DNA of 64,000 nucleotides, taken from positions 558,001-622,000 of the forward strand of contig JAIXUN010000002.1 in NCBI GenBank assembly GCA_027483535.1, read 5' to 3'. Each line of letters starts with the position of its first letter. Position 1 is the stretch's first letter. The stretch comes from a bacterium. Lineage in GTDB: Bacteria > Armatimonadota > Fimbriimonadia > Fimbriimonadales > Fimbriimonadaceae. The notes under the pieces were generated by a model. That model ran no database searches and was not told the DNA's origin. It saw only the letters and a program-made list of their open reading frames with translations. The position numbers and the translations under genes were made by a program. Below, piece by piece: positions 10,757 through 55,054 of this stretch.

Positions 10757-10759
10757 CCC

Positions 10760-13515: not shown

Positions 13516-13545
13516 AAACAGACCCCTTGTATCGCTTGCGAGACG

Positions 13546-14535: not shown

Positions 14536-14578
14536 AGCGATAGTTGGTCGGAAGGCGGTTGGTAGAGGAGAAAGGCGA

Positions 14579-17856: not shown

Positions 17857-17857
17857 C

Positions 17858-18781: not shown

Positions 18782-18787
18782 ATGGAA

Positions 18788-25853: not shown

Positions 25854-25893
25854 CACTCGTAAATCAGAAAACCAAACGTACACTGAACCATCC

Positions 25894-29820: not shown

Positions 29821-30762
29821 ATGATGGGTAGCACCGCGACAACGCAAAATGCATCCGCCGCTAGGGCAAATCGCCGGTGGCGCGCCTTTACGATGGTCGA
29901 GTTGTTGACCGTGATTGCGATCATCGCCATCCTGGCGGCGATCACCTTCCCGGTTTACGCTCGCGTGAAAGACAGCGCTTTTAAGAGCAGCGACATCAGC
30001 AACATGAATGCGATTCGCGTAGCTCTTCAGCAGTATCGCGCAGACCAAGGCGGATATCCTCCCGCGCTGCTGGGCTACATCACGCCCTACCAGTTCCAAT
30101 CGGGAACGGCTGAAGTGATTCCCGCCAACCTTGTTGTCGGCGCCCTGTATCCAAAACGAATTGAGAGCCTAGACACTCTTCGCCCGAACTATGCGCGAGT
30201 GCCGAAGGACCTCTTAGTGGCAGGTGTCTGGCCCGCAGGCGATAACCGAGCCGTAGGATCGGCCCCCTTCATCGACTTGAACGGAGACGGTGTCATCAGC
30301 GCCCTCGACGACACGGCCCAGGCACGCCAAGCGTTTTCTTCCGACGTCTCGAACGTTGCAGGCCTTAGCTACTTCGCTTACGACCTCACCGGAGCCGGCG
30401 AGTATGCGCAATCTTCCAGCCCTGCGGCAAACGATGCCGGTCGGTTCTGGGCGATCAGCGGTTACGACGTCGCCCCGATTCGACTCGGCGACGGAGCGTC
30501 GGCTTACGAAGTTCACTACACCCGGTTCTGGTCGGGATTTGGTGTCGCGGCGGGAAGCGCGCAAGACGACCCACGGCAGCTTGGCTACACCGAGCCGCCA
30601 GAGTCGACGGTGATCACCTGGAACACCTACTTTAGAAGCTACTCGGGAACGAACACTCTCGCCAACGGTGCCAGCAAGGACATTGTCCTCTTCCTGGGCG
30701 GTTCAGCTAAGGCCGTTGATTCGCGCCTGATGTCCGAAAGAGCCTGGCGACTGGAGCCCTAA
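29821..30762 (+). CDS. Type IV prepilin (candidate major or minor pilin)
   Basis: The product is 313 residues. A 23-residue leader ending RRWRA precedes FTMVELLTVIAIIAILAAIT, the class III prepilin N-terminus with the conserved Glu at +5. The residue before the cleavage site is Ala instead of Gly. After the helix, NMNAIRVALQQYRADQGGYPPALL is the familiar pseudopilin start. The C-terminal part has an Asp/Asn-rich loop (DLNGDGVISALDD), which could bind calcium as in GspG-type pseudopilins. A good ribosome site (AAAGGAAGG) precedes the ATGATG pair. It is larger than a typical PilA (about 150) and is the smallest prepilin in this locus. Confidence 0.9.
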   Translation: MMGSTATTQNASAARANRRWRAFTMVELLTVIAIIAILAAITFPVYARVKDSAFKSSDISNMNAIRVALQQYRADQGGYPPALLGYITPYQFQSGTAEVIPANLVVGALYPKRIESLDTLRPNYARVPKDLLVAGVWPAGDNRAVGSAPFIDLNGDGVISALDDTAQARQAFSSDVSNVAGLSYFAYDLTGAGEYAQSSSPAANDAGRFWAISGYDVAPIRLGDGASAYEVHYTRFWSGFGVAAGSAQDDPRQLGYTEPPESTVITWNTYFRSYSGTNTLANGASKDIVLFLGGSAKAVDSRLMSERAWRLEP

Positions 30763-30824
30763 CGGAGGCTCTTGCCTCCCCTGACCTTCCTTGCACTGAA
30801 ATGCTAGGGCAGAGAATTCTCACC

Positions 30825-32879
30825 ATGAATCAGAATCAAGCGCCGTATCGCAACCAACAGCGTGGCACCACCCTTGTTGAGGTGCTGGTTGTCATTGTTG
30901 TCTTCCTGGTTGGCATATTGGCCGTTGCGCAGATTTTCCCTGGTGGATTCCGAATTCTGGACCGCACCCGTGACGCCGCGATGGCATCGGCCCTGCTCGA
31001 TTCTGAGTTGGAGAGACTCAAGGCGAAGGGCGGAAGCGTTCCTAACTACATCGCCGCGGTTCAGCCACTCGGAAACGGCCTTTATAGCATCGACATCACG
31101 CGCTCGCCCCAAGATTACGCACCGAACGCCACGGGCATTCGGAATGATGGAGTCGCGATGGTTGGAGCAAATCCGACTGAGCCCTGGACCCTTGTTTCCG
31201 GTGCAAACCATTTTCGCAGAATCGTTGGCGAGGGCCATCGACTCTCTGCTCCCAGATTCTTGAGCGGAGCGGCAAACTCCGGTGCGCCGTTCGGATCGGT
31301 CGTGAACGTCGATTTTGCGCCTCTGGAAGTTCCTCGGGACGCCTCGCAACCGCTGGATCTCGCCATCTACGGTCGAGAGTACATGGTGCGCCGTGGAGAT
31401 CGTCCGACGGGAGACCTTGCCGAATACGAAGTCTCGCTGCAAGATGCAGAAGGACAGAACGCACGGATTCACTTCCCGAACCTCGCCGGTGGAGCACCTG
31501 CGCTTTATCGAGTATCGGCCACCGTCAACGCTCTCCTAGGGGGCAACCTTGTCCAGTACGCTTTGGTCGCCCAGGTGCCTACTGCTGGAGTCGATCCGGT
31601 CGTAGCGGCAAGCGCAGTCTTCGCACCGCTTCCAGCTGGAGCGACCTTCGTGAGCCTCGACCCCAGTTCGCTGCGGGTGAACCGGCTTTATGAGGAAGTT
31701 CCGTTCAACCTTCCCATCGCGTTTACGCCGGGCAATGCGTTCCAATACACGGTTTTGAACCGCCAACTTGGCATCTTGATGTTCAATCCGGCCGCATACA
31801 GTCAATTCGATCAGCGCCCGGGTAGCTCGCGCGAGCCGAATCGAGTATTCCTTGATTACACGGTTAAAGACTGGCGAGCATTGCGAGAGGATTTCCGACT
31901 ATCGGCGACCAGCGTCAACGTTGACCAACCTAACGGAACGACGGACGTCTTCCCGGTCGCGAACAACGTCTACCGAGTGGCTATTCCGAGCATGCGAACC
32001 GTTGACGATCGCGCTCCTGACAACACCGTTGAGCAGCAACTTGAACTCAGCGCGCTGTTCGAGCTCGTTCCCCCGGCTTCACGACTCACGATTGACCTCT
32101 CGCCCACTCAAGGAGCCGGGACCGACAACCTGTACGTCGTCGATCTCGACACGGGCGGCGTTCTGTTCGAATCCTTCAACGGTGTGCAAACCCTGCGCGT
32201 GAACAAAGGTCTGGGTGAACTTCAGTTCTTTGATGCCGATGCCAACCCGGTGAACGGCGTGACTGGAGCGCTGCTCTTGCCCACGGGCGCCACCGACGTT
32301 GTTAGGCTGGACGATCGCTCCCTGCGGGTGGTCTACTCGGCCAAAAAGAACTGGGCCCTTCACATCTTCAAAGCGGCGAACCGCTACTCGGTCTCGCCGA
32401 CCGCGACCGGGCTTCTCGCTCCGACCTTTGTCTACCCTGGCGGTGCCAACCCGACCTTGGCCGGACTCAACCGACGCATCTACTTCCCGCGAATGGACGC
32501 CGGACAGACGGTAAGCATCGGCCGGCTTCACTACATTGACTCGAACGGTGTTCCTCGAACTCTTGAGGGCGTCCAAGGTGTGGTTCGCTTCTACACCCGA
32601 AACGAGTCGATCGCGATTCCAATGCCCGCCATCGACCTTGAGGAGATCGTGCCCGACGCCAACCCCGTCAACTGCCGACTCAACCTGACTCGACCTGGTG
32701 GACCGCTCGAAGGCGTACGCGGAGCAAGCATCAAGGCTCGCGCCTTTTGGAACCCTAACTTCTTTGCCCTCACCAACGACCAAGTGCAGAACTTGAACTT
32801 CGGCTACTCGCGATGGGCCAGGCAATGGAACATTCGCACGAAGGAAACCTTTATCGACCGAAACGAGTCTGCGGAATGA
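30825..32879 (+). CDS. Large PilV-like prepilin
   Basis: About 684 residues from the ATG at 30825 (an in-frame ATG at 30801 is an alternative). The leader ends QQRG and is followed by TTLVEVLVVIVVFLVGILAV, a class III prepilin signature with Gly at -1 and Glu at +5. The next stretch, RDAAMASALLDSELERLKAK, resembles PilV/GspI minor pilins. The remaining 600 or so residues are Asn/Thr/Val-rich beta-type sequence of no family I know. PilV proteins are usually about 150-200 residues, so this is an outsized one. It shares a short overlap (ATGA) with the next prepilin gene. Confidence 0.88.
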   Translation: MNQNQAPYRNQQRGTTLVEVLVVIVVFLVGILAVAQIFPGGFRILDRTRDAAMASALLDSELERLKAKGGSVPNYIAAVQPLGNGLYSIDITRSPQDYAPNATGIRNDGVAMVGANPTEPWTLVSGANHFRRIVGEGHRLSAPRFLSGAANSGAPFGSVVNVDFAPLEVPRDASQPLDLAIYGREYMVRRGDRPTGDLAEYEVSLQDAEGQNARIHFPNLAGGAPALYRVSATVNALLGGNLVQYALVAQVPTAGVDPVVAASAVFAPLPAGATFVSLDPSSLRVNRLYEEVPFNLPIAFTPGNAFQYTVLNRQLGILMFNPAAYSQFDQRPGSSREPNRVFLDYTVKDWRALREDFRLSATSVNVDQPNGTTDVFPVANNVYRVAIPSMRTVDDRAPDNTVEQQLELSALFELVPPASRLTIDLSPTQGAGTDNLYVVDLDTGGVLFESFNGVQTLRVNKGLGELQFFDADANPVNGVTGALLLPTGATDVVRLDDRSLRVVYSAKKNWALHIFKAANRYSVSPTATGLLAPTFVYPGGANPTLAGLNRRIYFPRMDAGQTVSIGRLHYIDSNGVPRTLEGVQGVVRFYTRNESIAIPMPAIDLEEIVPDANPVNCRLNLTRPGGPLEGVRGASIKARAFWNPNFFALTNDQVQNLNFGYSRWARQWNIRTKETFIDRNESAE

Positions 32880-35218
32880 GGGCGATCATGACTGAGAAAC
32901 AATCCACCGTGGAAACGAAAGTGAAGACGCTAAAAAACGGTCGTAGGGCATTTACGCTCGTCGAACTCATTACCGTTATCGCCATCACGGGTGTCCTGCT
33001 GAGCATCATCATCGTGCCGCTCTTCCAGGGTTTTAACTTCACTCGAACGGCTCAGGCATACGGAGACGCTCAAGATAGAGCGCGCGTCCTGGTCGACAAA
33101 CTGACCACCGAAATCGGCTCTGCAAGTTTGGTCCGAGACCCGAACGGCGTTGGCGGACTGGTCAACATTGAAGTGCCTGTCCCGGCTCAGGGCAAAGCTC
33201 CAGACGGAACGCGAGTGACCCCGACCAATGCAGGCGCGATCGTGCTTGTGGGTCTTCCTTTTGCGAAACTCGATATCGTGATGCCTTCCAAAGAAGGACG
33301 CGACCCTGCCGCCCCCGGAACCTACATCGATCCCGCAACCGGAAAGATCGACCCTACGTTGAGTGCTCCGAAAGGGCAAGTCACCCTCCCGATGGCCCCG
33401 GGTCAAACGATCCGCCGCTACTGGATCGGTCGCCGAGATCCGTTCCAAGAGTATGCCAACCCCTACGATGGACTCCTTGTTCGAACCGCAGGTGGACGAG
33501 ACAACCTTTACGTCCTCTATTCGGCTGAAGTCGAACCTTACATTCCCGTAAACACCGGAGCCGGCACGGTGATGTCGACCAACCCACGGTTCTTCAATGT
33601 CGACCCTCGTACCGTGAACGGCGTAGTATCGCAGCCTCTGCTCGATGACCCCAACTTCTTCTTGCCAGACCGAGATGGGGCAGGGAATATCATTGCGAAC
33701 AACGCGAAGGCGGTTCGGATTCGAAACTGGATCCGACGCGCGACGATTCTCACTGAAGTCTCCCGGTACGACATGGTTCTTCCCGCTTACGAGCGAAGCA
33801 CCAGGCTCGTCAACCTCGATGCCATCGCCGGAGCACCCGGGCAATACACGCCGCGAATGGTTCCGCTGATGCAACTGAAGCCGTCGCGAGTCAGCAACGA
33901 CCCCACCACCGGGCAAACTGCGTCGCGCTTGGGCGAAGAGTCGGACAACGGTCCCGAAATCGGACCGGAAGTCTTCCGCGGTCAGTACGGTCAGTGGAGC
34001 AACCTGCGGGTGCGGATCTATCCCTCCGGCTTCACGACGGGCAACTTCTACGTTGTCGGACGAAAGCGCTCGGCCCAGTTAGTTCCGGGCAACTATCCGA
34101 GCAGCAACCTCAACGATTTCTCGGTCTATCTGATGGACCCCGTCGACGTCGCGCCGGACACGGACGACTCTGTAGGACTTGAAGTTTTCAACGCCTCGGT
34201 CTTTGCTCGAAGCGTATCAACGGGTCGGCGATATCCTTTCTCCGACGCGATCAGTGCTGCAAACACGGTATCGGGATGGCTGAGTTCCACGAATACCGAC
34301 TATCGCGACAACTTCATGCCGTTCGTTGTGAACAGCTCAACCGGAGCCGTTGTTACCGGATTCCCGATTGGGTCGGTAGGCAATCCGACGGCCGCATTCC
34401 CTCCGGTAGGCGTACAAAACCTTCCGGAGCGACCTGCGGGCGATTCCTTCACGCCAACGAACGACCCGGCGGTTGGAACGGGTACGTTCTCAGACGCTCA
34501 GTTCGCCTCGATCAATCGACAGTTCAATAAGATCTGGGCCGATGCTCGCAACAACCAAAACGGAGTTCCGGCTTGGCTGGGTGAAGTCGGTGGAGCCCAT
34601 CGCTTTATCGACCTTCGAGTAACGCCGCAACTAGATGGCACTCTCGGACCGTTGCACCCGACCTCGCCGCTGGGTGGAGCCGCAGGAGCTCCGCTACGTC
34701 GATGCCGCGTGGTGCCGGGTAGCGAGGAAGTCTTCGGTCCGGATCAGAATCCGGGACCGAACTACGGAACCCTCATCCGATATCGCCGAGTCACGCGAGA
34801 GCCGGGTCCCAACGAGTATCGAATCAACTACGGAGATCTTCCGGAGCCGGATTACGCTGCGCTGGGCCTTGCCGTCCCGCCTGCTGGCTACACTCCCGGC
34901 AACTTCGTCAGCGCTGTTATTCAGCCCCGGTTCAGAGCGGGCTACATCCAGCTCTGCAGCCAACCGGAGGTTCCGATCCCGGCTCAGATGACCGAAGTCG
35001 ACCCCATCACGGGCAACACGGTCTCTGGTCCCGGAGAGGTCCGTGTGGCGTACCGTTTCCAATTCACAGGGAACAACGACATCGTCGCTGTCGACTATGA
35101 CACTAGGGATCTGATCTCCATCCTGCTGACCATCCGGAACTATCCGCAATCCACGGTTCCGAATCCGCAGACCGTTACGTTGAAGGCAACCGCTGCTGTA
35201 CGCAATTTCACTCGATAA
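32876..35218 (+). CDS. Large PilW/GspJ-like prepilin
   Basis: About 780 residues from the ATG at 32876, which overlaps the preceding stop; ATG 32888 is an alternative. A basic leader ends NGRRA, followed by FTLVELITVIAITGVLLSII: the class III helix with Glu at +5 but Ala at -1. The following region (FTRTAQAYGDAQDRARVLVDKL) resembles PilW/GspJ minor pilins. The large C-terminal domain is rich in Pro, Gly and Asp, has no Cys pair apparent in its conserved core, and matches no family I can name. It sits between the PilV-like and PilX-like genes, the order usual for minor pilin operons. Confidence 0.87.
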   Translation: MRAIMTEKQSTVETKVKTLKNGRRAFTLVELITVIAITGVLLSIIIVPLFQGFNFTRTAQAYGDAQDRARVLVDKLTTEIGSASLVRDPNGVGGLVNIEVPVPAQGKAPDGTRVTPTNAGAIVLVGLPFAKLDIVMPSKEGRDPAAPGTYIDPATGKIDPTLSAPKGQVTLPMAPGQTIRRYWIGRRDPFQEYANPYDGLLVRTAGGRDNLYVLYSAEVEPYIPVNTGAGTVMSTNPRFFNVDPRTVNGVVSQPLLDDPNFFLPDRDGAGNIIANNAKAVRIRNWIRRATILTEVSRYDMVLPAYERSTRLVNLDAIAGAPGQYTPRMVPLMQLKPSRVSNDPTTGQTASRLGEESDNGPEIGPEVFRGQYGQWSNLRVRIYPSGFTTGNFYVVGRKRSAQLVPGNYPSSNLNDFSVYLMDPVDVAPDTDDSVGLEVFNASVFARSVSTGRRYPFSDAISAANTVSGWLSSTNTDYRDNFMPFVVNSSTGAVVTGFPIGSVGNPTAAFPPVGVQNLPERPAGDSFTPTNDPAVGTGTFSDAQFASINRQFNKIWADARNNQNGVPAWLGEVGGAHRFIDLRVTPQLDGTLGPLHPTSPLGGAAGAPLRRCRVVPGSEEVFGPDQNPGPNYGTLIRYRRVTREPGPNEYRINYGDLPEPDYAALGLAVPPAGYTPGNFVSAVIQPRFRAGYIQLCSQPEVPIPAQMTEVDPITGNTVSGPGEVRVAYRFQFTGNNDIVAVDYDTRDLISILLTIRNYPQSTVPNPQTVTLKATAAVRNFTR

Positions 35219-35222
35219 GGCT

Positions 35223-38200
35223 ATGAACAACACGCAAATTCGAAAGTCCAGGCAGGAGAAGGGTCAAACCCTAATCATCGCGCTGATCATTCTGGGCGTG
35301 CTGCTTGTGCTCGGCGCGGTCTACGCCGGAATCCTCAGCCGAACGATTAAGTCGACCGAACGAAGTGCGGAAGCAGATCGAGCGAACGACTTTGCCGAAG
35401 CAGGAATCCGCTACGCCCACGAGCAACTCATGAATTCGGAGATGGGTGCGGACTGGCGAGGTCAGCCCTCGCTTCCGTTGACCGCTGAGTTCACGACCGA
35501 TCCCGATGCCTACTACCTTCGACCCGCGCCGCGTGTCAGTGGCAACCCGGTTCGTTTCCCTGGCCTCAACTTCCAAGATCAGGGCGGTCCGGATGGTCTA
35601 GGACCGTTCCACCGAGTGGCTTTCAACAACGGTCGAGCCCTTGTACGGGTGCGATACGCCCCAGGCGATGCCGCCATCTTCACCGGACGCACGACGGTCG
35701 ATGTCCGAGTGAGCCCTGTAGGTGGACTTCAAGAGCCCGGCAAAGCTCGAAACTACTTGGTCATCGAATCGGTAGGACGGCCTGGCGCCATTTCCAACCC
35801 GAACGACCCGACGCTCAGCTCGCGACGTGGCCGAGTCCGCATTCGAAACTTTACGGCCGACGCTCAAGTCGCAACTGAACTCAGCAAGATGAGGTCGTTC
35901 GATGAGAAACTCGTCACGGGTCGAAAGCTGTTCGCCTTTGCGCAGATTGGAATCACCGATTACTCGCGGTTCATCCATAACAAGTACCGAGTAACGCGAC
36001 CTGCCGAAATCGGCGTTCCCACCGAGCTTGGAGCTCGAATGGTAGACGCCTCAGGTGCCGATGTTCCGGTGCAGCCCGTTCAAATTTTGGGCTCCAGAGA
36101 AGTTCCTCTGTTCAACTTAGCTGTGGGTGGAACGAATGGGACTGAAACTCTCGGACTCCCGGTTAACTCTGCCTTCGGTGGCATTCGCGTCAATGGCGAC
36201 CTCCGCGTTCACGGGGGAGTCAATACAAACCTGAATCCTGCGTTCGGAGACGTTTTCGCGGTAAGCGGCAGAATCGGCGGGGCAGATCGGCTCTCTCGAC
36301 TCTTTGTGCGATCCACCATCTGGAACGGTGTGAACTGGCAGACCAACGGCGCGATCCTGAACAACAACTCCGGTCTTGACTCCAATGCCGATAACTTCAG
36401 CACGCTCGGTGGAATCATTCGAGACGGTGAAGCGACGATGGACGCGTCGGGTGCTCCTCGCGGTGTTGGTTACCTTCGCGCTCCTACGGTTTTGCCGAAT
36501 GACGATACTGACGGCGTGAGTCGCTACGTCACGCTCACTCGTGATAGCGGATTCCCGATCAATCGAACGGGTCCTGGCGGTGAAGAGGCCGCAAACACGG
36601 GTCGATACGGTCACGGACAAGGCGTCTACGTCGATAACGCCAGCGACTTCCAAGTGCCGAGTGACGAGCGAGGACGACAGCTTGCGGGTGGAAGCGTATC
36701 CCAAGTGCAAGACTGGCTCAACCCCTACGGACAAGGAACCGCATTCCGATCTGGATGGAAGGGACCGTTCTACATTCCCGTTGGGGCATCGCTTCGATTA
36801 ACATTTGACGGCTTTTACGTCACCCGGAACGCCTTCCCAGACCAAGATGCGCAAGAACGCACTTGGAAGGGACCGAACGGCGCGGATTCGGGGCAAACCA
36901 CTCTGCGATACCGCGTTGGCCGAGGCTCAGATGGTCGAGTTCGAATCATCAACGCCCTCACGCCAGGGCTGAGCGCAAGCATCGAAGCTCCGGGCCTCAC
37001 GCCCGCCGACTACGATCAGGGCCCTGCGTTCAACGGCGTCCTTTACTTTGAAGGAAACGTCCGAGTTCGAGGAATCATCCCGACCGACGTCCAGATGACC
37101 GTCGTCTCCAACCGAACTGTCTACATTGAGGGCAGCCTCCTCAAGGGACAGGTTGGAAACGATGTGACCGAAGCCGGTCCAGTCGCGCCCATCGCCTATG
37201 GTGTCCCGTTCAACCGCGCCACCCGATTCAGCCGATCGACCCTGATGTTGATGGCAAAAGACTACGTGGCTTTGAACCCGACGATGTTTGTGGGTCCGGC
37301 TGCAGAGCGAAACACGCAAACTCTTGCGGGCGGGCAGGGCAACGGCGGATTCAACGCGCTTCGCCTTCAGGCTCCAGATGGTGGATTATCGCTCGACTTT
37401 GAATTGGGTTACGACGAGAGAACGGGTCAGCCGAGCTTTATCGACTATGTGACCACCAGTGATAATGGAGTTTCGCTTCTAGTCACCCAGGCGCTCGAAT
37501 ACTCGAACCCCGGTCCAACCAGCGCGTTCTACACGCTGAATGTCAATACGATCTTAGGCTCGACGCCGTACGGCTTCGAAACGAGCGGATCTGCAACCAA
37601 CGGAGCGATTCCGCACTACCTGGCCCTTCAAGCAGCGGTTCCGGCGTATGGTCCGATCTACGGACTGGGTGCAAACGACTGGCAACGTTCGCCTAAGTTC
37701 GAAACCGTCGCTCATCAATTGGTCGGTCCAGCAGCAGTGCCAACGGCCACGGGCGATACGCTGGCGTTCAACTCGGTTCACGGAGTTCAGTCGTACCGGT
37801 TCCAAGGATCAAACCGAATCGAACTCGACACGTCCTCGTTTGGCAACGTCCCAACGGGCAATATGCTCTTGGCTCGCACCGCCATCGTGCCGGCCGACGT
37901 TCGAATCGAAGCTTCGATCTTCGCCGAAGAGGGCTCGTTCTTCGTCATTCCCGGTGACTGGTTCAACCCCAACTCAGCCGACACGCGACAGGGCTACATT
38001 GCCAGCCTCAACGCATTTCTCGCTCAACCTGCTGTTGGCGGAGATCGCAACGTAGCGTTCCGATTGGCGAACGAAGAGCGGCTGAAGAACTACGGTTCTA
38101 CGCCCCAAACTCCGTTCTACGGAGAGCCGCTTGACATCAAGATCAAGGTCATCGGTTCGATCGCCGAGAACATGCCGCCTCCTATGGCTCAACAAGCCGA

Positions 38201-41500: not shown

Positions 41501-43600
41501 TTCATCGACCCCAGCGCTAACCGCGACCGATGGAGTCCGCTCCGCTGGTACACGATCATGCACGGCGTGATCCCTGCAGGTGCGCCCGTGGTGACCGGAA
41601 ACACCGTGTTCGTGGCCGGCACCTCTTACGTCCCGGATGTCCTAGATGGAAACGCTTCGATCGCAGCCCCTCCTCGTCCGTTTGGATACGTGACCGCGAT
41701 TCGAACCGATATCGACATCACGTCCGCGGTTCGGGTCACCGATAACGATGCCGCACGGTTCTATCCGAACCTTGCCGCTTACACGCCCACCGCTTTTGAA
41801 GCGAGGACCGTGGTTGCAGACGGGCTCCGGCCGTACCTCCGACAAGTCATCTCGATGGACTTCCCACGAGATGGATCGGCGGTTGCTGGTGTGCCTTGGC
41901 AAACCCGACAGTTGAGCCTTTCTGCCATCGTTCCTAACCCGAACTATGTATGGCCTCAGGCTCCGCAAAACAGCGCCGAGCGTGGACGGGTCTCGTTCGA
42001 CGACTTCAAACTTCGAATTGCCCAAGCCATCGTGCCCGGTGCAACCACCGCTCTCGGAGCCGTGCCTGGTGCTGGAACGCTTGTCGCGTGGAACGCGGCA
42101 GGGCTGACCGGCTTCCGGAAGATCGATCTCTGGGTGGCCGACGAGGGTCGAATCACCAAGGTCGATAGCTCCGGCAATACCTTGTTCGATAGCACAGCAA
42201 GCATTCGCTTCGGCGAAGGCGTTCTGAGCTCAGCAGGGAACTCGGGCAAGCTTTCTCGACCAACTCGCGTGAAGCAAATCCCGGGATCGCAAGACATCGT
42301 CGTGGTCGAATCGGGAGCAAACCGTGTTCTGCGAATGCAGCCCACGGGCTTGGTACGACGAAGCATCTCCGAGTTGAGCATTGATCCCGCCTCGCTCCCG
42401 GTCAACTTCCGGAACGGTGAGTCGATCACGCTCAACAATCCGCGAGACGTGGTGGTCTACCAGACCTACGTTCCTGCGGCGCAAAACCGATTCTCGAATC
42501 CTCGGCCTCTTGAGCAGTGGACCCACTATCTGATTGCAGATGCGGGCAACCGCCGATTGGTCGATGTCGTCGACCGAGTTGAGATCGACTCGGGTGGAAA
42601 CGTGATCGCTCAGGCGGGCCCCCTCGGCACCTTGGCATGGGTTTCCCCCGCGCCGATCTCCGGTGGCGACTACAGTTACGTCAGCGTCAATCGATTCCAA
42701 CTCACCCCCACTCGAGGCGTGATCGTCGCGGGTGTCGGTTCGAATCTGCCCGGCCGAAACAAGGCTGGCGATTTGATCCCGAGTGCGCCTGCGCCCAACG
42801 ATCCGAACAATCGACAGTCGAACGGTGGAATCGTCATCATCGATCCCGCCGCTCCGAACGGATATGTCGTGTACAACGGCATCGGAGTTCTTGGAGTTGA
42901 CGCGATCAACCGTTGGAACGACCGGACCGCAAATTGGACGGACACCGGAGATCCCGAAGCCTCCCAGGTTTCGCTCCTGGCGCCCGGCACCAACATCCCG
43001 CCACAACCGAACAAGCCGTTCGTTGGAGTTCAGTCGGTCACGGCAAGCCTCCGAAGGATTCCGCTTTCCGGTGGTGGAACCGCCGCGAGAATCCTGATCA
43101 TGGTCGCGGATGCAAGCGGTGTGTACGAAGTTGCGTGGGATCCCACGCAGGCTCCGGCAAACCTCGGCGGACAAGCCTTGACCACGCGATGGATGATCAC
43201 GTCCGATGCGTATCGAAACGTCCGTCGCGCCCTTGGCCAAACGCCAAGCGGTGAGAACGCCGACGCTTTGTATGCCACCTATGCCCGCCGAATCGACGAC
43301 GATAACGTCCTTATCGTCAACGGATACGTGGGCTGGACCAGAGGGGTATTCACCCTTGACGGCAGCGGTAACCGCATCTACACGGTTGCTCCGCAAAGGT
43401 TCAGTGGGGAAATCGTCCAACTTGACGGGCGAATATCCCCGCTCGACCAAACCACTACCGTGCCTCGATTGGTAGACCCGAACGGGTTCCACATCAAGGC
43501 AGACAACCTTGGATTTAACGCGCGAAGCATCCGGCTTCGCCTTGGCCCCATCGAAGGTGGAAGGGAACTTATTCTCCCCGTCTTCGCCGATAGAAGTTAG
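38549..43600 (+). CDS. Giant secreted beta-propeller-like protein 1 (PilY1-like position)
   Basis: The product is 1683 residues. A signal peptide (MMYRLGLVASLVALTGAASA, about 20 aa) exports it. Residues about 130-300 contain YDILLLAPASAAPIQF and REKLRKFVDKGGTLWIE, resembling the DUF4159/amidotransferase-like fold. Near 410-431 an Asp-rich loop (DIDQDGNPDDG) looks like a calcium site. Later parts have propeller-type repeats (ANRVLRMQ, NRRLVDVVDRV), similar to NHL or PQQ blades. Its place directly after the PilX-like gene is where pilY1 sits in minor pilin operons. No clear PilY1 homology was recognised otherwise. Confidence 0.7.
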   Translation: MMYRLGLVASLVALTGAASAQQTFSTRKTDVRAGVILPLRRGVGVSAVNRYVQSAAPHAFYNLDSVNSIKPAGWNFVNPLGAGFLSTDDYARWGAFDTSINNPTFAGRVNAGLRLQKSHAAYWEVKLDEATDSDLSEYDILLLAPASAAPIQFNPEDREKLRKFVDKGGTLWIEAITADAGSGTLQNPVDPTNGYPYTFDTFNAGSNWVADLTHPLMQRPNEMTLRDIGWLQNATNFGISPAVPGTWAPGMDLLQNSMVAEFAKLTGVSFASNRPTIATAKIGDGFVVVTSRIIAQKVNRTQNDPNYVSNVLFNARPAQLSAEGVAAAKFGMNLAYLSAESAQTGSGSRKNFSNAADLGAPLLRAFADPFPTPKPSFSTVDYNPPVVFKGMVFVSTANQVIAYDAEPSSDIDQDGNPDDGFQDLSDGEDRDIIFRTAPIAGGISAPVCAEIPDAQGGAPTNIVAVTDSQGRLHVYQIFSTPNGRTLRVGPAADNLAPATAPLTPGVGAANATGTPIAPTIVDGLAFVFDSAPPVAGTNGGRVWVADMRTLTVLQSPLNAPGQSFEVGLTAQYNVPRWCGFGAVGEIPVADSSGGYDKVVYVPFQSSTTPTQQNTGIVSYWFSAKGERPFRVERDGTDLVITTRANQAGLPIFLSDAQHPLGIKVSALDDNGRALNGNDLANLFTGARSQSSPGQLRLGLTSTGQALTTDDWSGRVRIDYTIDWAAVNSGQKGAIERGRVNFPDVAGARQVLGGVALSPNGNLFCTVGRPIGFGPNGVPVTQVNTNDAGGSLFGIKEEGRGNFRLVLRWDLHASGLNWRYNGGSARINDLLPDHDPLQYLDLGGFSVGSLLGGPLRRVCFVSPPSIRNGTVYVTGIAQKGPIPFLNVGVLMAFNENPPTPEIALPVDVGTNFTIAQPDPARSTNALSPEVPSRLTSNFVSVERGANGAGSLIRLDNMMTATRGAITDSINLSLPVNIQRQGQPDLFIDPSANRDRWSPLRWYTIMHGVIPAGAPVVTGNTVFVAGTSYVPDVLDGNASIAAPPRPFGYVTAIRTDIDITSAVRVTDNDAARFYPNLAAYTPTAFEARTVVADGLRPYLRQVISMDFPRDGSAVAGVPWQTRQLSLSAIVPNPNYVWPQAPQNSAERGRVSFDDFKLRIAQAIVPGATTALGAVPGAGTLVAWNAAGLTGFRKIDLWVADEGRITKVDSSGNTLFDSTASIRFGEGVLSSAGNSGKLSRPTRVKQIPGSQDIVVVESGANRVLRMQPTGLVRRSISELSIDPASLPVNFRNGESITLNNPRDVVVYQTYVPAAQNRFSNPRPLEQWTHYLIADAGNRRLVDVVDRVEIDSGGNVIAQAGPLGTLAWVSPAPISGGDYSYVSVNRFQLTPTRGVIVAGVGSNLPGRNKAGDLIPSAPAPNDPNNRQSNGGIVIIDPAAPNGYVVYNGIGVLGVDAINRWNDRTANWTDTGDPEASQVSLLAPGTNIPPQPNKPFVGVQSVTASLRRIPLSGGGTAARILIMVADASGVYEVAWDPTQAPANLGGQALTTRWMITSDAYRNVRRALGQTPSGENADALYATYARRIDDDNVLIVNGYVGWTRGVFTLDGSGNRIYTVAPQRFSGEIVQLDGRISPLDQTTTVPRLVDPNGFHIKADNLGFNARSIRLRLGPIEGGRELILPVFADRS

Positions 43601-43603
43601 GAG
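43597..43603 (+). promoter_or_regulatory. Shine-Dalgarno deciding the TTG start at 43612
   Basis: TTAGGAG lies 8 bases before the TTG at 43612 and 20 before the ATG at 43624. This supports the TTG start for the 2428-residue protein. Confidence 0.6.
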
Positions 43604-43611
43604 TATCCGCT

Positions 43612-46600
43612 TTGAAGCAATACATGACGTTGAAAAAGCGTTTCGCAGTCGCCGCCCTCGCCCTTTTAACAGGTGCGCTTGCGGTTGGACAGTCCGTGAA
43701 CGACCATGCGAACCTCAAGGCGAATAATGCCCGAACAGGTGTTAACGGAAATCCGGCGACATCTACCCCTGGGTATTTGTCCACCTCTGCGCGAGTCGCA
43801 GGAGTTGATCGGCCCTCGGCCCTTCGCTGGTGGTATCCGTTCATCAACTTCGCTCGGGAAACTCAACTTGAGCTCAACCAGGTGAGCCCGTACACCACGA
43901 CCATCGACGACACCGATCTTGGCCTTGCGTCCAACGTTGATGCGACCGGGAACAACGTCGGACCGTACGAGCCTTTGCCGAACGGTTTTGCGACCCAAAC
44001 CGGAGCTTGGTTCACTCCTAACGAGACCCAGGAAGCGTTCAACCCGTTCCGACTCCCGGTTCGTTGGAACAACAACCCCAACAACTCAAGTCCTTTCGAC
44101 GCAGTTAACTTTTCCGATCGTCACCCGTCGCACCACTGGGCGTTTACCGTGCCTCAGTCGTCTTCGACAACCGATCCTCGCGTTCCAGACCCCTCTCTCC
44201 CAACGAACTTCCGGGCGTACACCTGGACGTTCTCCCCTCGGCAGTCGACCTTCGACACGCTGAGCGGTGAGTGGGTCGTGACCCCAGACGCGACGATCAA
44301 GAACTACGCCGTTAGCGTTTACATCCCCGAAGGCCCCATGGTGAGCCCGAGCGGGCAAACCGTGTTTCGTCAGCGCTATCACGTTTATGAAATCGTTTAC
44401 GGTACGGGTCGACGATTCGTCGATGTGGTCGATACCTGGGCAACAGGTAGCGGCTGGGTTCGACTCGGAAATGGTGGCGCACCCACCAACCAAGTCTTCC
44501 CGTATGCCGGTCTTGACGGTGTGGGCAACCCCTACCCGCTCCAAGTTCGACTGCTGAACACCATGCCGCGAAACGCGGATGGCACTTTCCGTGAGCCCCT
44601 TCGAGATGGCGAAACCTCTACCGGTTTTGCCGTTGTCGCCGATGCTGTCCGCTTCGACGACAAGTCGACCATCGGAACGCAAGTTGCGACTCCGACCTCG
44701 GCAGGTTTTGGAACTCCGAATATTCGTGTCACCGCCTCAACGAACTTCACTCAAATTGATCCGACGGTCGCGACCAACGACTTCCGCGCCCCTGGAACGT
44801 TCGAGATCGGCGAAGTTGCGAGCCTAACGTACAACTTCGGCACCAGCAATTGGACTTATCGACCGAACGCTGCGGGCGGAGAATCGCGACAGTTCGACAA
44901 CACCAGCACTGCGATCACGAGTGCGAACTTCACTGTCGAAACCACGATCCCAACTCGAGTTGGCGCTGACTACCTCCAATCCACCGTCACCGGCGCGACG
45001 TCGACCGGACAAGTAACGGTGAATCCGGATGACGCTCTTGCCAACGGTTCGTATGAGATTTTCACCTTCCTTTCGGGTGACGAATCCGGCGTGAATCACG
45101 CCACCGAAGTCACTTACGAAATTTACGAAGGCGCAACGCTTGCCGAGACGGTCCGAGTCAACCAAGCCACCGCACGCGGATGGGTTCGCCTTGGCACCCG
45201 ACGGTTTGTCCACGAGAGAGAAGAGCCAAGCATTCCTGGGTCCGGCAATCGACTCCGGGTTGTTATGCTCAACTCGAGTTCCGTGGCGGGCGATGTTGGC
45301 CGAGTCGTGCGCGCAGACGCGTTCCGGTTCGACGAGAGTGCCGGAAACGCGGTGATCTCAACGCCGGTGCATGTCACCGCGCTCATCCGACCTTCTTCCG
45401 GCGCCGCTCCGGTGGATACGAACGTTGTTCTGATCCTGGACGAGCGTGGACGCATCCACTGCGTTGACGCCGAAGGTCGAACCGATGGCACCACGCGGGT
45501 CTACTGGACCTACCCAAGCATTCGAACCAGCACGTCCGACCCGAACCTCAACGTCGGGCTGGATCCCACCGACCCATCCGGTCAAGTGTTCGACGGTCAG
45601 GACGGAGCTTTGGGTGCAGAACTTCCGCTTGAATTCGACCTGAGCACCGCGATCGTCAAGAGGATTGACGAAGTGGACGCAGTCGGGACTCCGATTCAGC
45701 GCGACGTCCTTTACGTCGGTGCTCGAAACGGACGCATCTACGCAATCGACATGACGGGTCGAGGCGACTTTGACGATGTCAATCGAGTCCCCGGTACCAC
45801 GTTCCGACGCTGGACCTATCCCGCAACCTACTACCGCCCAGATGTGACGTCGTCGACGCGAACGGACGAAGCGACGAACCTTGGGTCGATCGCGAGCGTT
45901 ACGCAAGGCACCATCACCGTCTCGGGCAACCCAGTCGATGTCATTTACGCCGCAACCGAGCAAGGTCGCGTGTACTGCCTCGATGCGAAGGGCAACTTTG
46001 CCTACACGGGTACGCCGGAACTCATTACGAGTGTTCGGTGGGCATATCCCCCGGTGGATCGACCGAACCTGACGCCGATCATCGCTGCTCCTACCCTGGA
46101 CCAGACGGGCAACCGCTTCTTCTTTGGAACTCTGGACGACGGAAGTCGTGCGGGTGAATTCCACTGTATCAACGCCACCACGGGCGAGTACATCTGGCGA
46201 TTCCCGCCGGCACCAGGCGGTTGGACCCCAACGACAAACGAGCCCACGCCTCCGGCCGTGAACAAGTCCTCGTTCAATGTCTTCGCCTTCGCGGGCGGTC
46301 CGGCTTATGTTCCTGCCACGGAACTTAACTCGACGGACTTTGGCATTCAGCCAGGAACGATGCCCGATACCGTGTTCGCTCACAACTCGAATCACTTTGT
46401 TTATGCCTTCGACGCGGCTACCGGAGCGATTCAATGGCAAACCGATGAGCTTCAGTCTGGTTCGGTGGCTTCGCTCATCTACGGCCGAGTGACCGCTCAG
46501 AGTCAAACGGGCGGGCTGATCAATTACCCAATGGTGATGGCCCCAACGGCATCAGGCCGATTCGTCGGACTGTTCGCTCGATCATGGGACACGAACCGTT

Positions 46601-49600
46601 CCGGTGGAAAGCGCGGATGGGAAGACGGTACGGGCATTCCGGCGGCAAACACCGCTTCGATGACCATCTCGAACCGATGGCTCTACGGAGCATCCGAAAG
46701 CGGCTTCCTCTATGCTTGGTCCGATGTCGCCAACGGTGGTGGCTTTGCCCCTCCCGGCTTCTTCCCGCCAAATGATGAGACCGTCGTTGAGAACGACACT
46801 GCGGCGGACGTGTTCCGTGGCGCCGAGATGGCGCTCATCAGCCGAGTCGGCTTTGAAAACCTTCGAAGGCAGGCAACGGACGGCGTTCGTGGCGTGATCA
46901 ACATCGGCGACGTCGTCGATCTCTCGGGAACCTACACTCGTCCAAACGGTCGCATCCTCGGTGCTTACCGATCGGGTCGACCCGACAACACCACACCCGC
47001 ATTTGAGTGGGGTGAGACGATGTACATTCTCATCTACAACTTCCCGTACCTCAACCAAAATCCGAGTGGACGGCAAGTGGTTCCTCCTCGAGCGCGAGTT
47101 CAGCACGCGACACCGGGTAGGACAACCGTCGCGTCGTCTGGTCAGGCAAAGTGCTGGGCAGACCGAGCTCCGGGCGATCCCGACTCCGGCTACGTCGTTG
47201 TCGCGGTGCCGCTGACGTCAGCGGGTGCAACTTCCGTTCCTCCTGGAGACGGTTTCTTAACCGCCCAACTGGATTCGGCTGCGCTCACCAACACGCTTCG
47301 AAACCAAACAATCACGCTGGACCCGAACCTGGCGCGCATCCCCTACCGAGTGGCGAACCCGCTTGGTGTGAGAATGTATCGCTACAACCCGGCAACGGCT
47401 AAGTTCGAGCCAACCACGGCTGACCAATTTGGAGTCACCAGCGTTGCCACCGACCCAGAAACGCAAAACGGCAACTACACGGTTGGACCCAAAGTGGGTG
47501 AAAACCTCCGTACGGATACGCTGCGCTTGGGTCACGGACAAAGCGGCCGAACGGGTATCGATGTCTTCGACCGATCGCTCATGACGCTCTTGCGCGGTGA
47601 AAACCGAGGTCTAGAGAACGTCCGAATCGCTCGTCGCGATCTTCAATGGCTCGGCGGTACGTCCACCATCTTCCGACCGTTCAGCACGCTCGGCGCGCTG
47701 TTCAGCGGATTTGAAGATGCCCCGACGAACTTCCCGAACAACTCGCTCGACTATCCCGACATTCGTCGAGAGCAAGTTCGTGTCCGAAAGGATCCGAACG
47801 GCAACGCTCAAGATCCGATCTTGACTCGGGTAGACCTGACGCCTCCGCGGGGCCCGGGTAACACTCCGGTCACCCCGGCGAACGCTCCGGACCGAGTGTT
47901 GCGAGGAACTCCGTTCCAATTCCAAGTCGATGTTCCGCGCTACCAACCGTTCAATACGGGTATCGCAAGAACCGACTCGGGTGGCAACAACCCGCTCTTC
48001 AACCCGGGCTACGAAGGTCGATTCACGGTGCTCGTAGAGCAAGACGGTAACGTTCGGCAACGAGCGGGTGTGAACACTTCGGCATTCCGAGAATTCAACC
48101 TTGGCTCCTCGTTGGGACCCGATCAGCGGCTCGTTGTGACGACCCCGACGCTCGATCTCGGTTCCTTGCCGATGGGCTTTGGCTACGGACCGGGCGTTGT
48201 CAGCAACCCCGGACTCCAATATCAACGAACGCTCGGACCGACCTCTGCGTTCAATCCGTACGGAGGCTATGCCACAACCGGGTTCCGAACCTTCCAAGTT
48301 CTGAACGAGGGCAACATCAACCTGCTCAACGTCCGTCTAGCGAAGGGAACCGCTGATCCTACGGGAACCATCTTCCCCTGGCAGTTCTTCAGCCCGACGA
48401 ACGAAGACACGGGATACGTCAGTGGTCTCACCGACCTCTGGAGTGACATCGATGACGTCTTCGCTCCGCGCCTCAACGGAAACCCCGTGCCGATCGTGCT
48501 GCAAAAGCCGCGTGTGGGAGACGTTCAAGGGAGACAACTTCGAGTGAAGCCGCGACCTCGCGTCAACCCGAATATTGCTCCGTCCGTTATCAGCCCGCTT
48601 TGGGCCGGGAACGGTTGGAACACTGCAACCGGGTTCTTGACGTCCGAGTTCGAACGAGATCCTCGAGTAGGCGTTTCGGTGCCGCTTGGTACTCCGGTTG
48701 GTAAGTACAGCCAAACCCTTCGGTTGATCGAAGACTCGATCAACCTTACGGGCAACCCGGCAGGAGACCAACTGCTCAGCCTTTCTACGAACGCAAACGG
48801 TTCGCTAGATGGACTGGAGGCTTATTCCGATCCCGGTTTCAGGCTCGACTTCACCGTCCGTGAAGCCAAGCTCACCGGCACGGCGCCACGAGCCAACAGT
48901 GCCAACCCTGGCTTGACGGCGGAAAACTTCGTCGACAACTTGCCGTTCCTCGCGGGTGCAGGAACCTTAACTGGCTACAACAACCTGCAGCCGACGGGCA
49001 TGCACTTGCCAAACGGCGATCTCTGGATGGCTTGGTCGAGCGATCGACAAGCAGCGCGAGTCAGCACGGTTCGAACGCCTGGAGAAAAACTGGCGCACAA
49101 CATCTGGCTGACAAGGCTTGCATCGGGTGCGCCAAGAAGTAGCGGAGACACGACCAGCGACCTCATTCGATTCCGCTGGAACGATGCGAACAACTGGTCG
49201 ACTGAACCGCTTCAAGTCACCAATCTGCCCGTCGCCACGATGTTTGGTCCGACCCTTCGAGTCAATGGTCAAACCATTGGGCAGCGACTCGGAACCGTCG
49301 ATCCGTTCACCGTTCGATACGGCTACCCATCGTTCCCGAACCGAGGTTCGGAAAATGGTCTGCTCAACGCCGGTGCAGTCGATACCAATCGAACGTACCT
49401 TGCCTTCGTCGGTTCGGCTTTCCGAAACGATGGCGGTGCAAGAACGGTTGATAGCCGTATCTTCCTTGCGGAGTTCAACGTGGCGGCAGGTGCCCTCACT
49501 TCGTTGCCAACGCGAATCGTGTCTCTGGACTACGATACGTTCTCCATCAAGTCGAAGCCGACCGTGACGCTGTTGCCAAACGGTGCGATGGTCACTTACA

Positions 49601-50898
49601 CCGGACTGTCGAACAACCAGCAAACCACCTATCTGGCGCGGTTCGATGCGAGCACGGGTCAGTTTGCAGAGCCGATCCCGCTGACCTTTGGCAGTGGATT
49701 CGCTTCTGTGACCTCGCCAAGCATCGTTGCGCGATTCGCACCAAACGGTCCGTTCGCCCAGGGGCCCAACACGGTCGTCTACGACGTGATGTTCTCTGGT
49801 CAGCTTCGAGATCGCCGAGCAGGTGGCCTGTTCTTCGGACGAATCGAGGCTGCGCCGACGGGTGATCCGTTCGTTCCGGCAACGCGACCGAAAACCTGGC
49901 CCTGGACGCCGTTCGCCGATGTCTACGAGCGACCGGTCTTCAGTGCCCAGAACGGCAACTACACGTTGCGAGGCGCTGGTCTTGTCGGTGTCACGAACCC
50001 AGCTCTGTTCCGTGTCGAGCGCGTCGTGGGTGGTGTCGCAACCGCCATCGTCGATCCGACCACGGCCAGAGTCGAGCGAGACACTGGTCTGGTCACCATG
50101 CAGACGACCCTCGGTGGTCGACTGATCCTAGATCCATCGGCAGGAAGCTTCCGAATGGTTGGTGGCAACGTCCCCAGCGCGACGGATCTGCGCGTCCTGT
50201 ATAGTGCGAACTTCATTCGGGTCACGGACAGCGAAGTCGCCGGATATACGTCGACCAACCTGATGTTCGATAACCGATTGGCTCGGGCGAACTTCTCGAA
50301 CGGTTCAGCGACCTTCCCGGATGCGTTCTGGTTCAGCAACCAGAATACGATTCTCGCACCGGGCACGCAGGAAATCGCTTCGCGGTACATCGTTGGTGGA
50401 GTCCGATCTGGTCTGGGTGGTGGCACCACGACTCGACCGTTCTTCATGACCCTGCGATACGGCGTGCGCCTCGGCTTCCCGCTAGCGACGAACTCGGATG
50501 GAGCCCTTCTGGATTCCGTAACGGTGACGACCCAAACGGGTAACCCCATCAATGGAGCCTATCAAGTCGATCCTGCCGCCGGCCGAATCTACTTCACGCT
50601 CAATGATGAGAACACACCTGTTCGCATCTCCGTGAACCGGATCAGCGCGGGAACGAACGTGGTGATCAACGCTCGCCCAACCCTGGTTGGCGAACGATCG
50701 GAAGAGCCGGTGGTGCTTGAACGAGCCATCAACGAATCGGACGTGAGTATGTTCTTCGACCCGACGGTGCTGGATTTGGCCTACTCTGGTCGACGCTCGC
50801 TCATCTGGATGCTCTGGTCCTCAACCAGAAACGGATCGCCCGATGTGTACATGCAGACGATCTCGCCGAAGCTCCGACCGATCATTCCGAATCCGTAA
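43612..50898 (+). CDS. Giant secreted protein with golvesin-like and PQQ-like propeller regions
   Basis: The product is 2428 residues from a TTG start. The signal peptide region is KRFAVAALALLTGALAVGQS. Two segments (about 230-351 and 453-578) end with GWVRLG...VADAVRFDD and GWVRLGTRRF...VRADAFRFDE, the pattern of the golvesin/Xly carbohydrate-binding-like domain. Residues about 586-956 hold PQQ-like propeller blades (GRIYAIDM, GRVYCLDAKGN, YAFDAATGAIQWQ). The remaining 1400 residues are Asn/Thr/Pro-rich and end SPKLRPIIPNP. A surface or pilus-tip adhesin is plausible. Most of it is without a family that I know. The transcription unit ends in a very strong terminator after this gene. Confidence 0.75.
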   Translation: MKQYMTLKKRFAVAALALLTGALAVGQSVNDHANLKANNARTGVNGNPATSTPGYLSTSARVAGVDRPSALRWWYPFINFARETQLELNQVSPYTTTIDDTDLGLASNVDATGNNVGPYEPLPNGFATQTGAWFTPNETQEAFNPFRLPVRWNNNPNNSSPFDAVNFSDRHPSHHWAFTVPQSSSTTDPRVPDPSLPTNFRAYTWTFSPRQSTFDTLSGEWVVTPDATIKNYAVSVYIPEGPMVSPSGQTVFRQRYHVYEIVYGTGRRFVDVVDTWATGSGWVRLGNGGAPTNQVFPYAGLDGVGNPYPLQVRLLNTMPRNADGTFREPLRDGETSTGFAVVADAVRFDDKSTIGTQVATPTSAGFGTPNIRVTASTNFTQIDPTVATNDFRAPGTFEIGEVASLTYNFGTSNWTYRPNAAGGESRQFDNTSTAITSANFTVETTIPTRVGADYLQSTVTGATSTGQVTVNPDDALANGSYEIFTFLSGDESGVNHATEVTYEIYEGATLAETVRVNQATARGWVRLGTRRFVHEREEPSIPGSGNRLRVVMLNSSSVAGDVGRVVRADAFRFDESAGNAVISTPVHVTALIRPSSGAAPVDTNVVLILDERGRIHCVDAEGRTDGTTRVYWTYPSIRTSTSDPNLNVGLDPTDPSGQVFDGQDGALGAELPLEFDLSTAIVKRIDEVDAVGTPIQRDVLYVGARNGRIYAIDMTGRGDFDDVNRVPGTTFRRWTYPATYYRPDVTSSTRTDEATNLGSIASVTQGTITVSGNPVDVIYAATEQGRVYCLDAKGNFAYTGTPELITSVRWAYPPVDRPNLTPIIAAPTLDQTGNRFFFGTLDDGSRAGEFHCINATTGEYIWRFPPAPGGWTPTTNEPTPPAVNKSSFNVFAFAGGPAYVPATELNSTDFGIQPGTMPDTVFAHNSNHFVYAFDAATGAIQWQTDELQSGSVASLIYGRVTAQSQTGGLINYPMVMAPTASGRFVGLFARSWDTNRSGGKRGWEDGTGIPAANTASMTISNRWLYGASESGFLYAWSDVANGGGFAPPGFFPPNDETVVENDTAADVFRGAEMALISRVGFENLRRQATDGVRGVINIGDVVDLSGTYTRPNGRILGAYRSGRPDNTTPAFEWGETMYILIYNFPYLNQNPSGRQVVPPRARVQHATPGRTTVASSGQAKCWADRAPGDPDSGYVVVAVPLTSAGATSVPPGDGFLTAQLDSAALTNTLRNQTITLDPNLARIPYRVANPLGVRMYRYNPATAKFEPTTADQFGVTSVATDPETQNGNYTVGPKVGENLRTDTLRLGHGQSGRTGIDVFDRSLMTLLRGENRGLENVRIARRDLQWLGGTSTIFRPFSTLGALFSGFEDAPTNFPNNSLDYPDIRREQVRVRKDPNGNAQDPILTRVDLTPPRGPGNTPVTPANAPDRVLRGTPFQFQVDVPRYQPFNTGIARTDSGGNNPLFNPGYEGRFTVLVEQDGNVRQRAGVNTSAFREFNLGSSLGPDQRLVVTTPTLDLGSLPMGFGYGPGVVSNPGLQYQRTLGPTSAFNPYGGYATTGFRTFQVLNEGNINLLNVRLAKGTADPTGTIFPWQFFSPTNEDTGYVSGLTDLWSDIDDVFAPRLNGNPVPIVLQKPRVGDVQGRQLRVKPRPRVNPNIAPSVISPLWAGNGWNTATGFLTSEFERDPRVGVSVPLGTPVGKYSQTLRLIEDSINLTGNPAGDQLLSLSTNANGSLDGLEAYSDPGFRLDFTVREAKLTGTAPRANSANPGLTAENFVDNLPFLAGAGTLTGYNNLQPTGMHLPNGDLWMAWSSDRQAARVSTVRTPGEKLAHNIWLTRLASGAPRSSGDTTSDLIRFRWNDANNWSTEPLQVTNLPVATMFGPTLRVNGQTIGQRLGTVDPFTVRYGYPSFPNRGSENGLLNAGAVDTNRTYLAFVGSAFRNDGGARTVDSRIFLAEFNVAAGALTSLPTRIVSLDYDTFSIKSKPTVTLLPNGAMVTYTGLSNNQQTTYLARFDASTGQFAEPIPLTFGSGFASVTSPSIVARFAPNGPFAQGPNTVVYDVMFSGQLRDRRAGGLFFGRIEAAPTGDPFVPATRPKTWPWTPFADVYERPVFSAQNGNYTLRGAGLVGVTNPALFRVERVVGGVATAIVDPTTARVERDTGLVTMQTTLGGRLILDPSAGSFRMVGGNVPSATDLRVLYSANFIRVTDSEVAGYTSTNLMFDNRLARANFSNGSATFPDAFWFSNQNTILAPGTQEIASRYIVGGVRSGLGGGTTTRPFFMTLRYGVRLGFPLATNSDGALLDSVTVTTQTGNPINGAYQVDPAAGRIYFTLNDENTPVRISVNRISAGTNVVINARPTLVGERSEEPVVLERAINESDVSMFFDPTVLDLAYSGRRSLIWMLWSSTRNGSPDVYMQTISPKLRPIIPNP

Positions 50899-51071: not shown

Positions 51072-51101
51072 TTGACAGTCCATCCGAGTGGGTGATAAGA
51101 T
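51072..51101 (+). promoter_or_regulatory. Sigma70-type promoter for pilM
   Basis: TTGACA at 51072-51077 (perfect -35) and TAAGAT at 51096-51101 are spaced by 18 bases, with a TG one base before the -10 (extended -10). Transcription would start near 51108. A longer pilM frame with a GTG at 51088 would start inside this promoter, so it is unlikely to be used. Confidence 0.75.
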
Positions 51102-51132
51102 GAGTCGCCTCGTACGGGTAGGTTACTCACTC

Positions 51133-54939: not shown

Positions 54940-55054
54940 CTTAGAGCTTAATGCTCCCATACGGAACAATTCTAACAAGACAGGTATTGCGAAAGAAGGG
55001 CGTTGCCGGTAACGTTTCAGTAGCCGGCTCGTCAAGAAGACGAGGTTGAACAAC
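54940..55054 (+). other. Short gap between pilP and the short secretin-like gene
   Basis: These 115 bases hold a short GCCGG/CCGGC pairing (about 55004-55036) and no clear promoter. The ribosome site GAGG (55042-55045) lies 9 bases before the ATG at 55055. Confidence 0.35.

Follow-up and report, generated by a model that had tools for sequence, protein, structure and literature searches.

In type IVa pili (T4aP), PilY1 is generally regarded as the conserved head. The complex of minor pilins and PilY1 primes assembly of these pili and rides at the tip of the filament (PMC7541494). The array described here was found in a window, meaning the whole analysed stretch of 64,000 nt (G000:C1:558001-622000), of a 3.77 Mb genome from Fimbriimonadia (Armatimonadota). 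At positions 29821-50898 it codes for four pilin-like proteins of 313, 684, 780 and 1109 aa, designated pA, pV, pW and pX, and for two giant proteins, G1 (1683 aa) and G2 (2424 or 2428 aa). The six genes sit within a complete type IVa pilus locus, with pilB-pilT-pilC-pilD upstream and pilM, N/O/P-like genes and a secretin gene downstream. With moderate confidence, the array is read as encoding a T4aP priming and tip complex in which four minor pilins, three of them very large, carry two giant exported propeller proteins in place of PilY1. This reading draws on the gene order, leader signatures, absence of PilY1, a predicted propeller fold, a calcium-type loop seen in the sequence, and partial co-loss. 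The array is real and conserved; no description of it was found in open-licence PMC papers, and it is apparently undescribed there.

Conservation of the array and absence of PilY1

The sample of the phylum comprised 251 genomes from 146 genera; the presence counts draw partly on the same genomes and should not be read as independent trials. G1 was detected in 118, G2 in 117 and pX in 142 of the 146 genera. Within the class, about 30 genomes have the arrangement pA-pV-pW-pX-G1-G2 with similar gene sizes, nearly always with pilM as the next gene. Another 20 loci, picked for G1 from 15 other families, all have pX immediately before G1, usually preceded by pA-pV-pW. An independent pattern scan queried with pX, covering 84,980 species by one genome each, kept 80 loci. 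These carry Armatimonadota titles or come from bins, unnamed or wrongly titled, that have the same array, and G1 lies directly after pX in 71/71 named loci with downstream room. The order pA-pV-pW-pX-G1 is phylum-wide, and its recurrence in about 100 genomes goes far past what chance would give. The sequence-only reading of the window had tied the genes to a pilus, and in relatives, too, they lie in the pilus locus. In family f2 (L029-L032), the array is intact while the pilBTCD block lies elsewhere, as does pilM in one case. Outside the class, G2 is not directly after G1 in two loci (L075 and L085) and is located elsewhere. One assembly (G016) is missing pX and G1 but has a G2 stretch, which is taken as an assembly gap. 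No match of G1 to plasmids was obtained by tblastn. In Armatimonadetes bacterium Uphvl-Ar2, G1 is split into three reading frames (L056 8086-12823 and L142), possibly by sequencing error or decay. A public contig titled 'Methanoregulaceae archaeon isolate SJ84' (L117) bears the Fimbriimonadaceae pilus array, and its title looks wrong.

The sequence-only reading recognised no PilY1 homologue in the window, and this extends to the phylum: the PilY1 profile PF05567 was found neither in 29 G1 and 16 G2 proteins nor in the 251 genomes (0/251). The negative is meaningful because the same search detects PilY1 in an Aeromonas record with E=1.2e-10. Judged by this family test, G1 is not PilY1. Nevertheless, the gene order mimics that of minor pilins and PilY1, as had been proposed, and the propeller protein G1 has a PilY1-type calcium motif. 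The published calcium consensus of PilY1 is EF-hand-like, Dx[DN]xDGxxD (PMC8833165). It is present exactly in 93/112 and in relaxed form in 107/112 G1 sequences, at a median position of 25% of the length; composition-preserving shuffles of G1 contain it in 0.3% (exact) and 7% (relaxed). In G1 of the window, the putative loop is DIDQDGNPD at D410-D418, coded by 39776..39802 (+).

Pilins and giant proteins of the array

All six genes are on the + strand. The gene of pA (29821..30762) codes for a pilin with GspG/PilA-like N-terminus, matched by TIGR01710 at the N-terminus only. The second gene (30825..32879) codes for pV, a PilV/GspI-type minor pilin with a large extension; TIGR02523 PilV matches its N-terminus with 6e-5, below cut-off, and an alternative start at 30801 gives 692 aa. 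The protein pW (32876..35218) is in the PilW/GspJ position, also has a large extension, and at the N-terminus its profile matches solved type IV pilins; with the alternative start at 32813 it has 801 aa. The prepilin motif PF07963 was identified over the cut-off of 21.2 bits in pA (25.2), pV (24.3) and pW (23.8), and the Glu5 of the mature protein is conserved among the pX-scan loci in 64/65 pA, 62/62 pV and 63/63 pW sequences (189/190 in total). The fourth pilin, pX (35223..38552), is in the PilX/GspK position. Its leader is class III-like (KG|QTLIIALIILG) and without Glu5, which is absent from all members with a recognisable leader in the same loci (0/72). PilX and GspK were reported to be without Glu5 as well (PMC7541494). 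Four-base ATGA overlaps are at 32876-32879 (pV/pW) and 38549-38552 (pX/G1). The claims of the sequence-only reading about this stretch thus hold: the four pilin-like and two giant open reading frames (ORFs) are where it placed them, with alternative starts for pV, pW and G2, both junctions overlap, and the N-termini are pilin-type, by PF07963 in three proteins and by the leader in pX.

The pX of the window has no Pfam match, and among 30 pX members only one match was obtained, to FapA (E 0.006); a beta-solenoid in pX is not claimed on this lone match. As no curated PilX or GspK model matched over cut-off (NF037980 GspK gave E=0.11 and 12 bits against a cut-off of 130), pX is termed PilX-like by signature and position, and not a member of PF14341. 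The AlphaFold2 model of pX (pLDDT 79.8, pTM 0.85) has a long N-terminal helix at residues 16-71, followed by beta-rich domains. The fold search covered mainly residues 515-892, of which about 690-890 resemble CBM35/CBM6 jelly rolls (VIA Z 8.7, rmsd 3.0, 119 aligned). Foldseek on the pX model returned weak carbohydrate-binding jelly-roll matches only, with best E 1.1e-3, and a PDB profile search with pX gave nothing at E<=10. Carbohydrate binding by residues 690-890 is only a hint given by the model, because Z 8.7 is near what unrelated beta folds reach. Matches of the pV profile to OXA beta-lactamases (E 0.24 and worse) were dismissed as chance.

The genome codes for both giants with N-termini that, judged by eye, are Sec-type leaders. 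G1 (38549..43600) has a DUF4159/GATase-like N-domain, a BamB-type propeller and an NHL-like region in its C-terminal third; in 29 members, DUF4159 was found in 21/29, NHL in 5/29 and PQQ_2 in 1/29. In the model of residues 21-1215 (pLDDT 80.0, pTM 0.80), positions 328-1172 (G1 residues about 348-1192) align with whole propellers of BamB/Rv3035 type (VIA Z 19.6, rmsd 2.9, 354 aligned), and G1 is therefore predicted to contain one 8-blade PQQ-like propeller with long insertions. The 50 best VIA matches of G1 are BamB-type and WD propellers; PilY1 3HX6 is not among these 50, which excludes nothing. Foldseek had returned mostly eukaryotic WD propellers with poor superposition, which VIA resolved to BamB-type, and a PDB profile search with G1 gave marginal NHL matches only (best E 0.019). 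G2 (43612..50898) has 2428 aa when started from TTG 43612 and 2424 aa from ATG 43624, and contains a Golvesin_C domain and a PQQ_2 propeller behind the leader. Sixteen G2 members contain PQQ_2 (PF13360) in 14/16, Golvesin_C in 11/16 and Beta-prop_ACSF4 in 11/16, while the second half of G2, searched as two fragments, has no Pfam match. One stretch of propeller is weakly similar between G1 and G2 (hhalign probability 49%). The description of the giants as propellers is borne out by predicted structure for G1 and by PF13360 for G2; from the families proposed for comparison, PQQ_2 and golvesin were found in G2 and PF05567 in neither giant.

Proposed function, lineages without giants and alternatives

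By analogy with the minor-pilin/PilY1 complex (PMC7541494), ComZ (PMC6561018) and CofB-CofJ (PMC8179133), pX would be a cap carrying G1, and then G2, as a substitute for PilY1. PilD would process pA, pV, pW and pX, which would then insert into the inner membrane. The protein pX, whose missing Glu5 and gene position resemble those of PilX and GspK, would cap the pilin bundle. G1, exported by Sec to the periplasm, would dock on pX, probably on its C-terminal part, and G2 would join G1, possibly by the Golvesin-like and propeller domains. This complex would prime PilB-driven filament assembly and travel through the secretin to the surface as the tip, where it may be the head for contact and adhesion, and calcium bound by the G1 loop may stabilise or switch this head, as in PilY1. 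PilT, the gene of which is present, would retract the filament. Contact of the giants with pilins, their location at the tip and their part in priming and adhesion are thus proposed by comparison. Fimbriimonas ginsengisoli was reported to have fimbriae and to be non-motile, with pili probably serving for attachment (PMC4072686), which fits an adhesion head. A further-reaching proposal is made tentatively, as plausible but somewhat doubtful: the array may represent a PilY1-independent pilus head used phylum-wide, in which a BamB-type propeller convergently gained a PilY1-type calcium loop and the priming and capping job, and the pilin extensions evolved as a docking platform for the giants.

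In two genomes of 1.5 Mb from the same family as the window (G050 and G051), G1 and G2 are absent and the pilB/pilT pair is retained. Their pA-pV-pW-pX set is shrunken (L196 5990-11413 and L197 12609-17449), with pV of 318/262, pW of 538/492 and pX of 685/599 aa, against medians of 661, 736 and 1045 aa, respectively, in giant-bearing loci. Beside giants, pW measures 508-831 aa (n=104, median 736), and where they are absent 315-618 aa. The motifs FFVIPG and WGW are present in pX from giant-bearing loci in 102/119 and 103/119 cases, respectively, and from giant-less loci in 0/10 for both. These motifs were derived from giant-bearing lineages, and most of the other giant-less ones are distant. 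The G050/G051 pair is therefore the most informative, offers a natural test of the role of giants and pilin extensions, and probably reflects a single event of loss. Several other families are also without G1 by search. In f23 and f32, pilM is directly after pX (L204 and L203); in these lineages giants are missing, and pilins, pilM and secretin are kept. In f25, the slot after pX is occupied by an exported protein of 497-560 aa with PD40 propeller repeats (L200 11105-12784, L201 11169-12659), and in f27 by an unrelated exported protein of 1101 aa (L205 2754-6056). As the pilin array is present without giants in several lineages, the giants are its usual, not obligatory, partner.

Several points weigh against a tip complex of pilins and giants. 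The giants are not needed for persistence of the array, since giant-less lineages keep the pilins, and pW of 618 aa in giant-less G091 is an exception to the length trend. The location of the giants and their contact with pilins are inferred, and very large masses would have to pass the secretin. With one Aeromonas PilY1 as a single-sequence template, which has low power, hhalign gave probabilities of only 0.1 for G1 and 1.8 for G2. The related loci cannot be counted as separate evolutionary trials; likewise, kinship among the G1 sequences makes the calcium loop in 93/112 a single conserved trait rather than 93 events. Since exported proteins commonly have EF-hand-like loops, the loop in G1 backs similar working and not common descent. 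On the whole, the interpretation given in the sequence-only reading is partly supported: the position in the pilus locus of relatives, the gene order, the absence of PilY1 from the phylum sample and the propeller and calcium motif of G1 speak for it, and the placing of the giants at the pilus tip is a proposal. Giants are also absent beside pilins in several lineages, including the two reduced genomes of the same family.

Three other explanations have to be considered. The filament could be partly a pseudopilus like that of the type II secretion system (T2SS), with the giants as substrates pushed to the surface or medium and the large pilins as substrate receptors rather than a lasting tip. 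The set pX/pW/pV/pA also fits the logic of GspK/J/I/H, with N-terminal matches to GspG, GspI and GspK below cut-offs, and a survey assigns T2SS to Armatimonadetes (PMC6668835). GspK has also been suggested to make contact with T2SS substrates, to which PilY1 has been described as analogous (PMC7541494). However, PilT and PilM, hallmarks of T4aP, are over cut-offs in the locus, and it would be unusual for a general secretion system to have, phylum-wide, a single constant pair of cargo genes within its machine locus. This explanation is considered unlikely, though it is the likeliest of the three. 

A scaffold role of G1 and G2 is less probable still: like BamB, they would remain periplasmic or beneath the outer membrane and aid assembly of the secretin, the platform or the base of the filament. 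In structure, G1 indeed best resembles BamB and other exported PQQ-like propellers, G2 matches PF13360/BamB profiles, and pilM comes after G2 in nearly all loci of the class. The propeller similarity, however, speaks for a shared fold and no more, the giants resemble surface proteins in their size and their Golvesin-like and calcium-loop features, and giants are missing where pilins, pilM and secretin persist (L203 and L204). There is very little room for the view that the giants, though co-transcribed, are proteins of the surface or a stalk without physical link to the pilus, as pX-G1 adjacency is strict phylum-wide, the ATGA overlap joins the two genes in the window, and giants and pX motifs are absent jointly; this view can point to the inferred nature of the giant-pilus contact and to the two loci outside the class with G2 away from G1 (L075 and L085).

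If the tip complex of minor pilins and giants is real, the design of a propeller on minor pilins originated or was reconstructed outside the family of PilY1, and lineages with and without giants are a natural set for testing tip function. It would also raise the physical question how tip complexes of almost 7,000 residues get through the secretin, unless they remain outside. The question is testable, since Fimbriimonas ginsengisoli Gsoil 348, from soil, is cultured and its fimbriae are visible.

Pilus locus and comparison with known systems

The machine genes around the array, all on the + strand, are of type IVa: PilT and PilM are over NCBIfam cut-offs, and secretin, PilC and PilD over Pfam cut-offs. 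The extension ATPase PilB (24081..25853, MshEN and T2SSE domains, PF05157 and PF00437) is over the Pfam T2SSE cut-off and below the equivalog cut-off of its best NCBIfam model, TIGR02538 pilB (603.7 bits, cut-off 675.65). It is followed by the retraction ATPase PilT (25831..27207; TIGR01420 475 bits, cut-off 319.1), the platform protein PilC (27267..28496; PF00482, with best NCBIfam NF052607 PilC below cut-off) and the prepilin peptidase PilD (28654..29745; PF06750 and PF01478). Outside the window, three tandem PilT-family genes are at G000:C1:1530780-1534059 (L094), and more T2SSE-type ATPases are elsewhere in the genome. Downstream of G2, PilM (51088..52449; TIGR01175 181.6 bits, cut-off 133) precedes proteins in the PilN (52459..53346), PilO (53359..54198) and PilP (54211..54939) positions, which have no Pfam or NCBIfam match and are assigned by position, the first two being conserved across the class. 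A short separate protein from a conserved gene (55046..55795) has weak similarity to the PilQ N-domain (TIGR02515 E=0.0013 over 41-108) and is followed by the secretin PilQ (55826..57439; PF00263 3.6e-38). PilQ is apparently split into these two proteins (55046-55795 and 55826-57439), whose genes are conserved as neighbours in the class. Genes aroK, aroB and that of a PASTA-domain kinase are downstream of the secretin. At 7898-19726 (-) the window codes for vWA-GATase1_like, BatA/vWA, DUF58, MoxR AAA, coiled-coil and ABC-2 exporter proteins, and AT skew within this block changes from -0.19 to +0.25 at 14-18 kb.

Cassettes of several pilin-like genes are also known as the Verru_Chthon cassette proteins A-D (NCBIfam TIGR02596-TIGR02600). 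The N-termini of pA and pW weakly match TIGR02596, with all matches far below cut-off and at the N-terminus only; a search of open-licence PMC papers returned none on these cassettes. The pseudopilus tip of T2SS, composed of GspK, GspI and GspJ, is similar in the position of pX, its missing Glu5 and the logic of a tip heterotrimer, but differs in that PilT and PilM are present here and no pX match is over GspK cut-offs. ComZ of Thermus thermophilus (PMC6561018) is likewise a very large tip pilin, with a GspK-like part, an added beta-rich domain and no canonical pilin signature by PilFind. It is, however, a single oversize DNA-binding pilin with a solved beta-solenoid, whereas pX of about 1,100 aa is accompanied by two other oversize pilins and giant exported partners. 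Modules are grafted on pilins also in the modular pilins, the most extreme of which named in a survey has 860 residues (PMC8179133), and in CofB a modular tip pilin is an adapter for a separate secreted protein; CofB differs in being a trimer of a type IVb pilus (T4bP) with the secreted partner CofJ.

The closest system is that of minor pilins (FimU/PilV/PilW/PilX) and PilY1 of Myxococcus, Pseudomonas and Neisseria, where a pilin set is also followed by an exported propeller protein, the tip pilin is without Glu5, and the propeller protein has the Dx[DN]xDGxxD loop. The array described here differs in the lack of PF05567, in the 8-blade BamB-type propeller predicted for G1, in giants of about 4,100 aa together, and in minor pilins 3-6 times larger. 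In a phylum with T4aP genes, and with no PilY1 found, a constant array of six genes with much larger products is maintained. The sequence-only reading had proposed a new pilus-tip system, of which the array without PilY1 stands and the novelty of kind does not: the array varies the known pairing of minor pilins with PilY1, and its giants are probably a separate and much larger means of occupying the pilus tip.

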